The notes beneath the pieces are model-generated. The model made no database searches. It was not told the DNA's origin and saw only the letters and a list, made by a program, of their open reading frames with translations. 13,588 nucleotides of DNA from a candidate division SR1 bacterium CG_4_9_14_3_um_filter_40_9 (lineage in GTDB: Bacteria; Patescibacteriota; Gracilibacteria; Absconditabacterales; Absconditicoccaceae), in assembly GCA_002791215.1 (NCBI GenBank), contig PFWQ01000026.1, positions 1-13,588 of the forward strand, given 5' to 3'. The position numbers were made by a program, and so were the translations under genes. Positions 6,420 through 12,526 of this stretch are shown here, piece after piece (within the stretch, counting starts at the first letter, position 1; every line of letters starts with the position of its first letter).

Positions 6420-7991
6420 TTATGGAAGCATTTCTCAAGACAGTTTGAATTCAGCTCACTTTATGATTTTCACCTTTACGAAATCTCATACGTTGCGCGT
6501 TACACGTTGAATGTTACACGTGATCTGCTTCATGTTGTCTGTATATCCAATTAATTGTATTCCGTTTCCCGTTGAGCGTTTTCCGTTCTCCATTTTTATT
6601 TCGTTTACAAGCATCTCATGAATATTGCCGATTTCTTTTTCGTTATTTTCACGTGAAATACGCTTCAAAACTTCGTTTAATCTATTCCACCTCTCTCGTT
6701 TCACCTCACGCGATACGTCGTCAGGATATTTTTTTTGAGCCAAAGTACCGGGCCTGGAAGAATAAATCCCCATATAGATCATATCAAATCTTCCATGCTC
6801 CACGAACTTCAGTGTCTGCTCAAAATCTTTTTCCGTCTCGCCGGGAAATCAGATGATGATATCTGTTGTGATACTAATATCTCTTTTCAGCTTACGCACA
6901 TCATCGATGAATTTCTTCGCATCAGTTACAGAATATCATCTGAACATCCTTTTCAAAACAGCATCAGAACCTGACTGCAACGGCATATGGATATGCGGAC
7001 AAAGCTTCTCTTCCTTTCCATGCAACGCTAACAATTCTTTGGAAAAATAGGTCGGATATGGAGACGTATATCTGAGCCGCTTCAATCCTCTGCCGTCATT
7101 GCGAGTGAGACATGGCTTTAGTCCTTTAGGGCAATCTACAGAGGATTCATCTTTTAACGCCAAAATTTTTTTTATTATCTCCACAAATTGTGGATGCTTA
7201 TTGACAATCTGTCCGAGCAAAACAATTTCCTTGGCTCAATGCTTGATGTGGTATTCACATTCTTTCACAATCTGCTCCACAGGAAAATATTTTTCCAAAC
7301 CTCTCGCATAGGGCACGATACAATACGCGCAAAACTGATTACAGCCGGTAGAGATAGGCACATATGCAGTACTCGTATGCATATTCATGGAGGTAATAGA
7401 TTCGGGAATTATTTTTTCATATTCGTTGATGAACTCTCATTCATAGTTCACCTTGTATCACAATCTTTCAAGCATCAAAGGCAGGAATCATGTGTCATCT
7501 ATTCTCCGGAATAATTCCAGATTTCTCCATTTTTTCTGTAAAATATGGAACAATGGATTGAATGCGTGATTGACGAAAACCGTATCGAGTATCGAGTTAC
7601 GAGTATCGAGAAGTTCTAATTCGCTATTAGTTAATCAAACGATAGTGGGTTTTTGAGACATCAAACTGCCAAAAAAATTTCATTGTTGAAACTGACTCGG
7701 CACTTGTCACTCATCACTCGTGACAGATTTCAGAAGTCTGCGACTTCTGAAATTATGTTGTATCATGCATCAAGTAATCCACACTTTTTGATCAGGACGG
7801 ATTTCTTTCAATTTTCCCGTTATCTTATCTTCAGATTTTTGTCTCACCGAACAGGTTTCGAAGATCACAATATCCGCTTTTTTGATATCTTCTTCATACG
7901 AAAAACCGCAATGCTGAAGCACTGCCCTAATCCTTGCACTATCTGCATAATTCATCTGACATCCAAAGGTCAGGATATGGAAAGTTTTCAT
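6420..7991 (-). CDS. miaB: MiaB-type tRNA methylthiotransferase with repeat-derived insertions
   Basis: This is a radical-SAM methylthiotransferase that adds a methylthio group at tRNA position 37. The N-terminal cluster cysteines are C11 (FGCQMN), C47 (ETCSVR) and C75 (TGC, its Gly encoded by the TGA at 7770). The radical-SAM CxxxCxxC is C217/C221/C224 (TGCNQFCAYC). MPLQSGSD, GFPGET (Gly from the TGA at 6849) and a C-terminal TRAM-like end (VGDFVKVKIIKGAEFKLSGE) complete the family pattern. At 523 residues it is longer than usual (about 440-470). The excess maps to repeats read in frame: 7727-7753, 7694-7724, 7579-7612, 7084-7147, 6563-6591 and 6491-6524. No TAA or TAG interrupts the frame. 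The i6A-type MiaB is the best call; the t6A-type MtaB is less likely given MPLQSGSD. It heads an apparent miaB-murD unit. Confidence 0.9.
6491..6524. repeat. Heptamer repeat GTTnnnC inside miaB (TRAM region)
   Basis: Successive 7-base units GTTGCGC, GTTACAC, GTTGAAT, GTTACAC lie in frame within the C-terminal TRAM region of miaB, encoding the peptide TCNIQRVTRNV. Confidence 0.6.
6563..6591. repeat. Second heptamer repeat inside miaB
   Basis: Units GTTTCCC, GTTGAGC, GTTTTCC and GTTCTCC repeat at a 7-base period. They are read in frame as ENGKRSTGNG, just before the TRAM-like segment. The sequence differs from the neighbouring repeat at 6491 but shares the GTT-plus-four pattern. Confidence 0.6.
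7084..7147. repeat. Palindromic element with GTCATTGCGA core, in frame in miaB
   Basis: Perfect 9-bp outer arms AATCCTCTG/CAGAGGATT enclose GTCATTGCGA and GGCAATCTA. The same two core words occur at 10826-10879 in a terminator. Here the element is translated as part of miaB (peptide around VDCPKGLKPCLTRNDGRG). It sits where MiaB proteins normally have a short loop before the RYTSPYP-type motif. GTCATTGCGAGC...GCAATCT is a widespread kind of bacterial interspersed palindrome. Confidence 0.65.
7579..7612. repeat. Heptamer repeat ATCGAGT inside miaB
   Basis: Units ATCGAGT, ATCGAGT, TACGAGT and ATCGAGA repeat at a 7-base period, read in frame as LLDTRNSILDT. They lie between the third N-terminal cluster cysteine and the radical-SAM motif. 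Confidence 0.6.
7692..7726. repeat. Heptamer repeat CACTCnn inside miaB
   Basis: Units GACTCGG, CACTTGT, CACTCAT, CACTCGT and GACAGAT repeat at a 7-base period. They are read in frame as SVTSDEGQVPSQ. Confidence 0.6.
7727..7753. repeat. Perfect 12-bp inverted repeat inside miaB
   Basis: ATTTCAGAAGTC and GACTTCTGAAAT are perfect inverted arms around a TGC loop. They abut the heptamer repeat at 7692-7726 and start about six codons after cluster residue C75. The peptide is NFRSRRLLK. Confidence 0.65.
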
Positions 7992-7997
7992 GTCAGT

Positions 7998-8030
7998 CTT
8001 TTAACTTTTAACTTTCAACTTTCAACTAAT
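7998..8030. repeat. Heptamer repeat AACTTTC between divergent genes
   Basis: AACTTTTAACTTTC, AACTTTC and AACTAAT units repeat at a 7-base period. They lie in the 99-base gap between the divergent miaB and the 121-residue gene, immediately before the miaB start. I saw no convincing promoter hexamers in this gap for either gene. Confidence 0.6.
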
Positions 8031-8515: not shown

Positions 8516-8547
8516 ATTTGGAATTCGCCCAGGGATTAGTATTATTC

Positions 8548-8586
8548 ATTCGTCCTATTCGTCTTTTTAGTCCTATTCGTCCTTTT
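8548..8586. repeat. CCTATTCGT repeat abutting the start of the EEP gene
   Basis: CATTCGTCC, TATTCGTCT, TTTTAGTCC, TATTCGTCC repeat at a 9-base period. They end at the base before the chosen ATG at 8587. The frame is open through the repeat, so a longer N-terminus starting at a TTG near 8518 cannot be excluded. Confidence 0.55.
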
Positions 8587-9633
8587 ATGTTCCAAGCCAT
8601 TCTCCGGGTCATAATCCTTACCGACATAGCAATCCTCCGTTTTCCAGAGAACTACTACTCTGAACTTGCTATCAGTTTTCTCCCCTATCTCATAGGGATA
8701 ACTTTGTTATGAATGATAATTTCCTTCATCAAACTCAGAAAATATCTAAAAAAAACAAATATTTTCAATGGCCCCACTGTGAAGGGGGGAACAAAAGGGG
8801 GGTTTGTTTCCTCTTCTCGCATGCGATGAGCTTTGCTGGTAGCGTTCGGCATCCTCTTCATCATCCATTCAAATGCATTCAATAGCTTCTATAATTACAA
8901 GCCTGAATCTGCAATTAGTAATCTGTGATCAAACAATCAAACAATAAAAGTTTTATATTGAAACATCTATAAACTCAACGAAGATTATAGCGGGATACAG
9001 ACGACGATAGAAAACACGAATCCTGATCTGATTCTTTTTGTAGAATTTTCAGAGAATCATTATGAGCATCTCAAGGATTTCCTCCAAAAAAACTATCCCT
9101 ACATCAACAGTACTACCTGGTCCAAAAGCTTTATCGGCAGTATGGTCTTCAGTAAATATAAGATAGAGAATCGAGCAGATGATTTTCCACAGGGAAGACG
9201 GAGATATGCATATTTTTCTCTCCAGCCCAAAGACTGACCGGAACAATATTTCTATCTCGTACACACAAGCTCGCCTGATTCCTATGCTCATTTTGACATG
9301 AGGAATACACAACTGACGGATTTCATAAATGACTTCCAATCCCATCAGAGATGATACAGAGCCGACACCGACAAAGTATTCGTTGTGGGAGATTTCAATA
9401 TCTCGCCACGATCATCGTATTACAAAGATTTCGAAGAGTGATTGGGAAGCTGATTTATCGATGCTACAAGAGAATTCCCGACATTGTTCACACGGAAATT
9501 CTTTCAATTGCCGATATTCCGAGCACATATAGACCATCTCCGGACGAACGACATAAATACCATCCAAGACATAAAAACTGTCAAAATACCAGGTTCTGAC
9601 CACAAATGACTTGTCTTTACAGTGAACAGTTAA
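8587..9633 (+). CDS. Membrane-anchored endonuclease/exonuclease/phosphatase (EEP) family protein
   Basis: The EEP fold covers metal-dependent nucleases and phosphohydrolases; the substrate cannot be told here. The 348-residue frame crosses nine TGAs (8710, 8827, 8926, 8959, 9235, 9355, 9439, 9451, 9607). Two hydrophobic segments (about residues 27-47 and 81-96) suggest an N-terminal membrane anchor. The catalytic domain shows Glu153 (VEFSENHYE), His226 (VHTSS), GDFN with D269 and N271, IDH with D316/H317, and SDHKGL with D338/H339, which are the metal and phosphate ligands of the fold. The start of the domain reads KVLYGNIYKL, where the usual Asn is retained. A G-rich insert at 8771-8802 (PTVKGGTKGG) lies between the hydrophobic segments and looks repeat-derived. 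The stop TAA lies inside a heptamer repeat. Confidence 0.88.
8773..8802. repeat. CCCC...GGGGGG...GGGGGG insert in the EEP gene
   Basis: CCCCACTGTGAAGGGGGG followed by AACAAAAGGGGGG is a GC-rich island in an AT-rich gene. It is read in frame as a Gly/Lys-rich loop between two hydrophobic segments. It resembles intergenic C-run/G-run palindromes, but there is no second exact copy in the window. Confidence 0.4.
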
Positions 9634-9718
9634 CAGTGAACAACTAACAGTAAATAAAGAGAAAATAGCCTTAAAAGGACCCAAATTGTTAGTTGCTAGT
9701 TGTTAGTTGTCAGTTGGT
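9620..9718. repeat. GTTAAC/TTAGTTG heptamer inverted repeat after the EEP gene
   Basis: The left arm (9620-9652) has GTGAACAGTTAACAGTGAAC and CAACTAACAGT units. The right arm (9686-9718) has TTGTTAGTTGCTAGTTGTTAG and CAGTTGG units. The arms are approximate reverse complements around an AT-rich loop. The EEP stop codon TAA (9631-9633) is part of the left arm. It is the same family as 2827-2908 and 12189-12223 and probably ends the EEP transcript. Confidence 0.6.
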
Positions 9719-9765: not shown

Positions 9766-9823
9766 ATAAAAACCGAGATTCTTCGAAAGTTTTTATGACG
9801 TCGATATTATCCTTTAGGATAAT
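9766..9823 (+). promoter_or_regulatory. Structured leader with two short inverted repeats
   Basis: ATAAAAAC (9766-9773) pairs with GTTTTTAT (9789-9796), and ATTATCCT (9806-9813) pairs with AGGATAAT (9816-9823). Both are perfect 8-bp stems between the promoter and the start codon. They could be an RNA leader structure or an operator site. No known riboswitch is recognised. Confidence 0.3.
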
Positions 9824-9860
9824 TGAAGTGGAAAATTTATTACTTATACCCTCAAACAAA

Positions 9861-10799
9861 ATGTCTAAAGAAGAACAAACGACTGACCCAAAGGAAGGAA
9901 TCCAGAGGGGAAAAGACGAACTCATGGAAGATCCACTTGTCCACGAAGGTGGGAAAGATCCCTTCTTTTCTATGGAAGACGAACCGAAGGAGAAAGGTGG
10001 CAAAACAACTGGAACCAAACCGCTATTTCTGATCAGCACAGATTCTTTTTCCAATTGCGGATTGGATATGGTATTTGAACTCAGCAAAACCGCAGGATTT
10101 GATGGAATCGATCTGGCTATCCGAAAAAATTTCGATGCTCGGAATGTCGATTATGTAAAAAAACTTTCTACTACTCATGATATACCTGTCAAAGTGATAC
10201 AGGTTTCTGATAATGTGAATCAGAAAGAATTGAATAAGGCGTTGGATCTCTGCGAAGCTACAGGTGCTGATACCATCACCATCAACGCTCCGTCGTATTT
10301 CAATCTCAAAGCGTACAACTTTATCGTAGACAATATCACAACATATAAGAAGGATAACAAACACATACATTTCGCTATCATCAATCCGGAAAACTCTAAT
10401 GTATTCGCATTACCTATCCCGAAGTATCATTTCACCAATATCGTAGATATTGTGAAAAAATATGGATGCTATATAGGATTTGATGTGGCGAATTTCGATG
10501 CAGAGACTCTGGAGAACGAAGTCATGAAGAAATTACCGAATCTGTTGCCGTATATCGCAGTCCTGTATTTCTCAGACAAGAACAGGCTCGGAGAATGACA
10601 TATTCTCCCTGGAGAATGAACGCTCAAACTCGGAGCATTCCTCAAAAAAGTCAAACAAAACTGATTTATGCGCTACTTCAGTTCCAAGATTAACATAAAC
10701 AAATCTGAACTCGCAGACTCAGAAAAACTCGCCGATCTTTTGGGCAAAGCGAGAGAATACTACAAAACACATTTTGAAGAACTTAAGACCGACGAATAA
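9861..10799 (+). CDS. Xylose isomerase-like / AP endonuclease family 2 TIM-barrel protein
   Basis: The 312-residue product matches the sugar phosphate isomerase/epimerase and AP-endonuclease-2 TIM-barrel superfamily in outline. FLISTDSFSNCG begins strand 1. GFDGIDLAIRK follows the usual pattern of a helix leading to strand 2. IGFDVANFDAET resembles the late D-x-A/G-N strand, and LGEGHILPGEG the HLPxGEG-type loop. Three in-frame TGAs occur (10596, 10617, 10662); two fall in that Gly-rich loop. Residues 1-53 form a charged, low-complexity extension (many Glu, Lys, Asp, Gly) not typical of the family. ATG 9861 is chosen because it follows the leader; the frame is open to an ATG at 9795. The substrate is unknown, and several metal ligands of true AP endonucleases are not obvious, so DNA repair is not claimed. 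A strong hairpin terminator follows. Confidence 0.75.
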
Positions 10800-11218: not shown

Positions 11219-12526
11219 TTATTTCATCAATTTTTCATATAATTTCTTTTCTATTTCAAGATGTCCCGGGTTTTCTCGATTGATTTGTAATTCGAGCAAC
11301 TGAACTAGCTTTTGGAGTACAAAGAATTTCTCCAAACTCTCCTGGGAAGCTCTTTTGATATCTTCCATAAATTGTTTGGTTTTTTCTTCACCTATCTGTT
11401 TGAAATATTCATCAACTCTTTCTTTGGTGCCAAATCTTTTCTCAAGATTAGCCACTCTGCTCTTAGATTCCTCCTCTATCAAGGTATGAGGGACTTCGAC
11501 TTTGAGATTTTTTCCCTTAACTGCGTTAAGCAAGTCTTCGACTTGTTTCATGAGTTCTTGTTCAAATTTCTGTTCAGCGATAGACGTCTCTATGAAGCCG
11601 ATAAGATCTTTTTCATTCTTCACTTGAGATTCTTTACCGAACAATTTTTCGAGCATCTCATCGTTGATTTCAGGCAAGATAATCTGTTTCACATCCTGGA
11701 TAGTGAATTTCAATTCTGCCACTTTAATGCCAGCCCCGTCTTTAGCGGGGTCAGGTTTTTTGCTCAAAAGCACTTCAGGGATTTTTTTTGTATCATATTT
11801 GATAGTAAATTCATCACCTTTTTTCTTCCCCAAAAACGTCTCCCTAAAAAACTTCTCATCATCAGACATCTTCTGATCTTTATCATCAGACATCTTCTGT
11901 CCGAATTCTGACTCTCCGACGTAGGTATGTCACTTATCAACTTCAGCTCAGTCTTTATCAAGATAAACAAGCGCGACTTTGGAGATAGTGTCCAATGCGA
12001 TTGCATCAGCGTCTTTGTAATCAGCATAATTTTTCTTTAAACGGGCCATAGCATCATCTATCTCTTCTTGTTTGACCGCGTTATCAATCTTTTTCAGACT
12101 ATGTTTTTTCCAGTCTTCATTGACTACTTCCACATCAGGAAATATATCCAATTTAAGCGTAATTATCGTATCTCCCTTCTCTTCATTTTTACTGTTAGTT
12201 GTTAGTTGTTCACTGTTAGTTGATGTTGCTTTTTTCTGATTCACATCATACGGTTCTCAGATAAATCTGATAGTCGGATTCTCTTTGATGAGCTCTTGAA
12301 GACCGCTATTGATGAGGTTTTCGTAGACTCCAACGGCAAGATATTCAGGCTTCACATTTTCTTCCACCTTATCCATAGGCGCGTGTCCTTTTCTAAATCC
12401 AGGTAATTCCAAATCTTTCTGAAAATTCTTCAGAATTTTTTCTTTAGATTTTTCTTGATCTTCGGTAGTCACAACAAGCTCGATATCATAGCAAGATTGT
12501 GCTCATTTGGTAAGTTTGTGCTGCAT
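11219..12526 (-). CDS. tig: Trigger factor, ribosome-associated chaperone
   Basis: Trigger factor binds the ribosome exit tunnel and shields nascent chains. The 435-residue product matches the family length. The N-terminal ribosome-binding domain carries the signature GFRKG at residues 43-47 (LPGFRKGHAP). A PPIase-like middle domain follows, with a helical C-terminal chaperone domain (VEVPHTLIEEES, then EYFKQIGEEKTK). Four in-frame TGAs occur (12503, 12257, 11948, 11930); without recoding the gene splits into three ORFs. Repeat-derived insertions are visible: a heptamer block at residues about 102-113 (TSTNSEQLTTNS), a tandem duplication of QKMSDDKD/QKMSDDEK, and a CCCCG palindrome encoding DPAKDGAG. 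ATG 12526 gives a normal-looking N-terminus (MQHKLTKGAQSCYDIELVV). Stop is TAA at 11219-11221. Confidence 0.92.
11733..11752. repeat. CCCCG...CGGGG palindrome inside trigger factor
   Basis: CCCCGTCTTTAGCGGGG is a 5-bp stem with a TAAAG-type loop, read in frame as DPAKDGAG. The same design (CCCTGCTAAAGCAGGG) appears intergenically at 13544-13559. Confidence 0.5.
11858..11899. repeat. Tandem duplication in trigger factor
   Basis: An exact 18-base word, ATCATCAGACATCTTCTG, occurs at 11858-11875 and 11882-11899 with a 24-base period. It produces two copies of an eight-residue QKMSDD-type unit. Confidence 0.7.
12189..12223. repeat. TTAGTTG heptamer repeat inside trigger factor
   Basis: Units CTGTTAGTTGTTAGTTG, TTCACTG and TTAGTTG belong to the same family as 2827-2908 and 9620-9718. 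Here they are translated, giving a Ser/Thr/Asn-rich linker between the ribosome-binding and middle domains. Confidence 0.65.

Follow-up and report, generated by a model that had tools for sequence, protein, structure and literature searches.

In-frame palindromic elements and heptamer arrays in core genes of a UGA=Gly patescibacterium

Coding repeats in bacteria and the miaB locus

Palindromic repeats that are translated as part of proteins have been described chiefly from Rickettsia and Wolbachia. The Rickettsia palindromic elements (RPEs) are presented in reviews as palindromes of 105-150 bp that form in-frame fusions in conserved genes and encode a conserved peptide; the one tested RPE-bearing enzyme mentioned there stays active (PMC2229807, PMC10969869). 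Short tandem units have been described from marine Beggiatoaceae, Cyanobacteria and Bacteroidetes, whose TAACTGA heptamers are, by the account in PMC4679880, mostly intergenic and near start codons; genic copies lie mostly at protein ends, since forward copies hold stops in all frames. Template-switch mutations, as characterized in PMC8794818, produce a perfect reverse-complement copy of adjacent sequence in one step. Finally, PMC6851277 describes the hypervariable PTD gene of a BD1-5 gracilibacterium, in which 9-bp repeats with conserved amino acids occur in one surface protein. Among the matches listed in the open-licence literature, no report deals with palindromic or heptamer repeats in coding genes of Gracilibacteria or CPR apart from this last one, whose repeat is of another sort, and none with dispersed coding repeats in UGA=Gly bacteria.

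In a UGA=Gly patescibacterium, we found that in-frame dispersed palindromes and heptamer arrays are present in many core genes. Like the RPEs and their Wolbachia counterparts, the palindromic DNA marked by GTCATTGCGAG is dispersed, lying in frame within conserved genes as well as between genes, with empty sites in relatives at its in-frame insertions in miaB and in a RimO-like gene. Unlike the RPEs (105-146 or about 150 bp, conserved peptide), it has a core of about 25-72 nt, with 25-50 nt the usual size, and copy-specific arms; its copies are read in several frames, and in its UGA=Gly host it is accompanied by heptamer arrays. This likeness is judged from the reviews' description. The heptamer arrays resemble the TAACTGA repeats in their 7-bp units, in the few copies per array and in lying often upstream of starts and sometimes in ORFs. 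They differ in having many different units instead of a fixed TAACTGA, in their internal positions in core genes and in the use of TGA as a sense codon in 4 of 13 genic arrays. Repeats in a gracilibacterium gene with repurposed TGA are shared with the BD1-5 case, but here the insertions are dispersed among core genes. Unlike the events of the template-switch study, the putative inverted copies discussed below lie beside a dispersed element, inside bacterial protein genes, and are deduced from comparisons that are not polarised. This patescibacterium would represent a second system, unrelated to the first, in which to study the passage of selfish or slippage-born DNA into protein. As the element's arms are specific to each copy, the mechanism of its insertion or growth could be tested by sister-strain comparison. 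Standard-code annotation would break the genes concerned.

The window analysed is a stretch of 13,588 nucleotides, to which all coordinates refer unless another locus is named. A first-pass annotation had credited its miaB gene with at least six in-frame repeat insertions. The relevant features are as follows.

6420-7991, minus strand: miaB, a MiaB/RimO-family methylthiotransferase gene (UPF0004, Radical SAM, TRAM; 523 codons, code 25)
7727-7738/7742-7753, minus strand: perfect 12-bp inverted repeat with a 3-nt loop, its core unique in the genome
About 7699-7721, minus strand: degenerate period-7 array adjoining the palindrome; passes the lag-7 scan; in-frame TGA (residue 95)
7582-7610, minus strand: period-7 array of CTCGATA type, 4 units, encoding LDTRNSILDT; passes the lag-7 scan; no net gain
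7089-7151, minus strand: 63-nt (21-residue) in-frame insertion DESSVDCPKGLKPCLTRNDGR; segment of 31 residues against 10-11 in 30/30 relatives
6560-6596, minus strand: degenerate period-7 array of AACGGAA type, from Tandem Repeats Finder; adds about 10 residues ahead of the GYTDNMKQ strand
6490-6521, minus strand: degenerate period-7/14 array CAACGTGTAACGCG, from Tandem Repeats Finder and the lag-14 scan; no clear gain
7998-8027, strand not applicable: period-7 array (CTTTCAA)4 upstream of miaB, with 6 nt between it and the start codon

Inserts in miaB compared with relatives

The miaB gene is a single frame of 523 codons that holds neither TAA nor TAG and reads 13 TGA codons as glycine under code 25, which bears out the claim that all its repeats are kept in frame. 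Ten of the 13 TGA codons align with glycine in at least 27 of 30 relatives, and these conserved positions indicate that the host uses the UGA=Gly code (table 25); no tRNA-Gly(UCA) turned up in a scan of 20 genome stretches. The start codon is supported by alignment with relatives. Motifs reported to be intact are indeed so: UPF0004 with its three cysteines, the radical SAM CxxxCxxC and TRAM are all present, the Pfam domains score above cut-off, and C11, C47, C75, C217, C221 and C224 are invariant in miaB and the 30 aligned relatives. Among the NCBIfam models, the protein scores 348 bits against the subfamily model TIGR00089 (cut-off 251) and 310 bits against the MiaB equivalog TIGR01574, below the cut-off of 355; a relative without the 63-nt element (L007) scores 309 bits on the latter. 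The product is best described as a MiaB/RimO-family enzyme, probably closest to MiaB, with a substrate that is predicted only. Rfam gave zero matches across the window at gathering scores, and a structured RNA there was rejected on this ground.

Homologues were sought in 59 genomes, of which 51 gave a match and from which 30 loci were retrieved, and in contigs of named genomes (8 loci). After removal of duplicates and of L019, which was excluded from the counts as its N-terminal part had no match, 30 related MiaB proteins were aligned with the window protein; several genomes with split matches are absent from this alignment. As the search set held no genome of the same genus, insertion events cannot be closely polarised. 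The aligned core comprises 520 residues in the window protein. Each of the two closest relatives has 487, a difference of 33; the median of the 30 relatives is 486, and one of them reaches 521. The earlier estimate of an excess of 60-80 residues holds only against a canonical MiaB (7mjv, 457 residues). Most of that excess had been assigned to the region between C75 and the radical-SAM cysteines, and this assignment is refuted. From C75 to C217 the window protein has 142 residues; the 30 relatives, all of which have this stretch, show a median of 137 (range 110-149), and motifs in it are common to miaB and relatives. Conservation in relatives was the very outcome that the first-pass annotation had named as fatal to its proposal; the stretch is clade-wide and not made of insertions.

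The alignment places the net gain in three other segments. Residues 276-306 number 31, against 10-11 in 30 of 30 relatives; residues 80-104 number 25, which is 8 more than the 17 of the two closest relatives, with one relative of 30 as long; and residues 455-482 number 28, against a median of 18, with none of the 30 as long and the longest at 27. The six claimed insertions are real repeats and in frame, but they stem from three kinds of event. One is a dispersed palindromic element, another is an inverted self-copy specific to this locus, and the remaining four are period-7 arrays. The proposed resemblance to RPEs is apt for the GTCATTGCGAG element.

The segment 276-306 holds the 63-nt insert, which bears the dispersed GTCATTGCGAG...GCAATCT palindromic element, with GTCATTGCGAG itself at 7095-7105; a palindromic element in the gene had been noticed in the first-pass annotation. 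Its 21 residues are matched by none of the 30 relatives, which present an empty site. The outer arms of the insert are AATCCTCTG and CAGAGGATT. One arm ends in GGATT, five bases that form codons aligned with the relatives' Gly-Leu; the other arm would then have been copied, in inverted form, from host sequence, unless the match is fortuitous. No direct duplication, such as a MITE would leave at its target site, was seen by eye at the two sites for which relatives' DNA was at hand (miaB and the RimO-like gene). In segment 80-104, the perfect 12-bp inverted repeat of the first-pass annotation is confirmed; folded as DNA it has a z of -7.6, and none of 200 shuffles was as stable. Its core, AGAAGTCNNNGACTTCT, occurs once in the genome and is therefore not a dispersed repeat. 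The first arm consists of N-F-R-S codons aligned with a conserved N-[FLM]-R-[SN] motif, and the second is an inverted copy of these codons at a place where relatives have others. Together with the adjoining heptamers, this palindrome accounts for a gain of about 8 residues. Both miaB palindromes have one arm composed partly or wholly of codons alignable with relatives.

As regards the four heptamer repeats claimed, those at 7582-7610 and 7699-7721 pass the lag-7 scan, for which codon shuffles of miaB yielded a mean of 0.07 arrays and never more than 1 (1000 shuffles). Those at 6490-6521 and 6560-6596 are more degenerate, the latter passing neither the lag-7 nor the lag-14 scan. Two of the four coincide with net gain, about 10 residues of array preceding the TRAM strand (GYTDNMKQ) in one case; the other two, at 7582-7610 and 6490-6521, add no clear net length, the segments holding them being at least as long in 21/30 and 20/30 relatives, respectively. 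A Tandem Repeats Finder hit at 7254-7273 corresponds to codons of a gaplessly aligned segment and looks coincidental.

The inserts had been suggested to be tolerated as surface loops. In the structure model they appear as low-pLDDT coil, with block means of 54 and 46 for residues 281-300 and of 52 and 50 for residues 91-110, and with residues 471-475 below 50. Low confidence at these places also reflects the lack of homologues for the residues concerned, and equally low blocks occur outside the inserts (191-200, 54; 221-230, 53). The low-confidence coil is thus weakly suggestive of inserts falling in surface loops.

Repeats across the genome

The GTCATTGCGAG motif has 53 copies in the genome, against none for the pattern read backward. 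Fifteen of these copies overlap called genes, three of them at first codons where the start may be miscalled, and 38 do not. The 9-bp outer arm of the miaB copy is the longest among 47 tabulated copies (6/53 without a recognisable right end were left out); by eye, one copy without the standard right end, L066, reads longer. The flanks of the element are complementary in a copy-specific manner: the outer stem averages 3.50 bp, compared with 2.00 bp (sd 0.14) when flanks are paired at random among copies, and a stem of at least 5 bp was found in 12 of 48 copies (2.7% expected; 5/53 copies without a right end left out). The same element in relatives gave no such signal, with 0/18 copies in G030 and 0/13 in G017 reaching 5 bp; these samples derive from 20 of 47 hits fetched in G030 and 18 of 24 in G017, less 2/20 and 5/18 without a right end. 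Only two copies exist in G008, too few for the test. In G017 (L226, L228, L234), a second palindromic repeat (TATGTCA.CCTGAG...) is nested in the element. The string GTCATTGCGA retrieved no bacterial repeat family among the titles of the matches listed in the open-licence literature.

A Y1 (IS200/IS605-like) transposase was considered as sole mover of the element and rejected. The genome has one Y1 match, presence of such matches in relatives does not track element number, and none is present in G030, G035 and G018, where the element has 47, 30 and 23 hits, respectively. The Y1 match, at about 468-1098 of L245, contains many TGA codons and is flanked by CTCCG.GGGTTTACTCCGGAG palindromes, which are unlike GTCATTGCGAG.

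Heptamer arrays were surveyed in a sample of 218 kb (20 stretches plus the window). The lag-7 scan found 32 arrays, against 0-1 at lags 5, 6, 11, 12 and 13; lags 8, 9 and 10 gave 8, 6 and 15, and the harmonic lag 14 gave 16. The units vary, ACT (complement AGT) being the commonest fixed trimer, in 7 arrays of the sample. Genome-wide, the (ACTNNNN)4-type pattern, in which ACT occurs four times at intervals of 7 bases, was found 115 times, the highest total among the 59 genomes searched, and its backward control 5 times. Thirteen of the 32 arrays are inside called genes, and in 12 cases the nearer gene end is over 20 codons away. With called genes making up 82-83% of the sample, they hold fewer arrays than their share. 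Genic arrays number 2/15, 4/26, 3/14 and 0/2 in the code-25 relatives G012, G022, G031 and G029, and 1/5 and 3/13 in two standard-code genomes (G018 and the standard-code G040 have no arrays), figures that do not show recoding to be the cause of genic arrays. Near-perfect (ACTAATA)n arrays of about 16-17 units occur in G022 (contigs C6 and C36), so some relatives may still hold young arrays. In the window, heptamer arrays are also seen at 2825-2912, after ORF 2389-2823 (nrdR-like by eye) and beside an S41 peptidase gene, and at 9619-9718, between ORFs 8518-9633 and 9795-10799.

Carriers of arrays or elements include the genes for UvrA, MurB, PFOR, TsaD, RsmE, Elp3, TopA, a RimO-like protein, KsgA and a U32 peptidase. 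They were identified by ORF calling, so frame-breaking inserts would escape notice. The RimO-like gene has a 33-nt element insert at a site that is empty in 12/12 aligned relatives, four weaker loci (L151, L155, L159, L162) having been left out. Gaps against PDB sequences coincide with array or element positions in MurB, TsaD, KsgA and RsmE; the latter has a 7-residue gap at two adjoining arrays and a third array outside the aligned block. The UvrA arrays and the TopA element fall between aligned blocks, where a gap is not sharply delimited. The trigger factor gene of the window carries two insertions.

12185-12232, minus strand: heptamer-array insertion of 48 nt (16 residues); none of 18 relatives as long, four having 1-5 residues at the site
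11864-11902, minus strand: second in-frame insertion, of 13 residues, with the tandem duplication QKMSDDKD/QKMSDDEK; none of 18 relatives as long, one having 2 residues at the site

Origin and persistence of the inserts

The reading we favor, with a probability of roughly 0.7, is that miaB is a working gene of a UGA=Gly patescibacterium and that its loops have grown by accretion of short repeats, probably neutral if translated. To the observed sequence, frame, empty sites and genome-wide recurrence, and to the loop placement in the model, this reading adds translation, neutrality and three mutational routes, which we infer. By the first route, the dispersed GTCATTGCGAG element would insert. 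By the second, fold-back template switching would write an inverted copy of neighbouring host sequence, building or lengthening hairpins. By the third, degenerate 7-bp tandem arrays would grow, probably by slippage, a source suggested by the nature of the arrays. Genic copies would persist only if the frame is kept, TAA and TAG are absent and a surface loop is hit, TGA being harmless here, and the survivors would be translated as floppy linkers with no function of their own.

Several other explanations were weighed against this one. The extra segments might be ancient functional MiaB sequence of the clade. Such an origin suits the stretch from C75 to C217, present at 110-149 residues in 30/30 relatives; it is very improbable for the rest, as the element and pre-TRAM segments are unmatched in length by all 30 relatives, and it is refuted for the element, one of 53 genome copies. 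Conversely, MiaB could be unneeded and the gene decaying, with inserts piling up and the open frame a chance survival. The many inserts within one gene would fit such decay, an improbable one given the 523 open codons, the retention of six cysteines and other invariant residues, a model score as high as that of L007 and the presence of the same kinds of insert in the core genes for UvrA, TopA, MurB, TsaD and trigger factor.

One could also envision that the inserts are excised from the transcript or bypassed in translation, as in the case of mitochondrial byp elements, leaving a protein of normal length, since both miaB palindromes form hairpins and lie within core enzymes. The insert lengths of 63, 33, 48 and 39 nt, taken from comparison with relatives, are all multiples of three and hold no TAA or TAG, and these properties, which skipped elements do not need, make such a fate extremely improbable, even though ORF-based detection favors in-frame cases and tempers the argument. 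A different possibility, compatible with accretion in miaB loops, is that the arrays are regulatory, binding ribosomes or a protein, a role that has been put forward for the TAACTGA repeats, and that genic copies are spill-over. Of 19 non-genic arrays, 10 stop no more than 12 nt before a called start or overlap it by at most 20 nt, against 10% for random intergenic placements, and one lies 6 nt before miaB. However, called starts may be biased, as arrays hold TAA that ends upstream frames, and units and orientation differ among arrays; a regulatory role strikes us as unlikely, if credible.

Neutral accretion is held more firmly than the fold-back route. The latter is suggested by the copy-specific complementary flanks of the element and by the two miaB palindromes, each with one arm partly or wholly of host codons, and is weakened by the negative flanks in G030 and G017, by the small hairpin excess and by the similarity of G022. 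Gene-internal hairpins with stems of at least 10 number 7 against 2.1 in codon shuffles (n=8), and those of at least 12 number 2 against 0.2; the corresponding values in G022 are 5 against 1.8 and 2 against 0.1. Being only modestly above the shuffles and similar in G022, these counts led us to set aside fold-back acting genome-wide. It is tempting to speculate that active fold-back template switching inverts host sequence beside short palindromes, that elements and self-palindromes grow into genes in this way, and that recoded UGA widens tolerance so that core proteins lengthen loop by loop; we regard this scheme as tentative and on balance doubtful. Neither of the enzymes examined, Y1 transposase and RVT_1, could be linked to array growth or fold-back. 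A reverse transcriptase as array writer was rejected, as this genome (88.5% complete) has no RVT_1 match; 17 of the 59 genomes have one.

Lastly, PP..KG.KGG or PLTKGGGEAGG protein stretches, for example NGPTVKGGTKGGF, occur in window ORF 8518-9633 and in L027, L011, L037 and L122. They look like a further in-frame palindromic repeat family and are found in KsgA and in relatives' MiaB as well.
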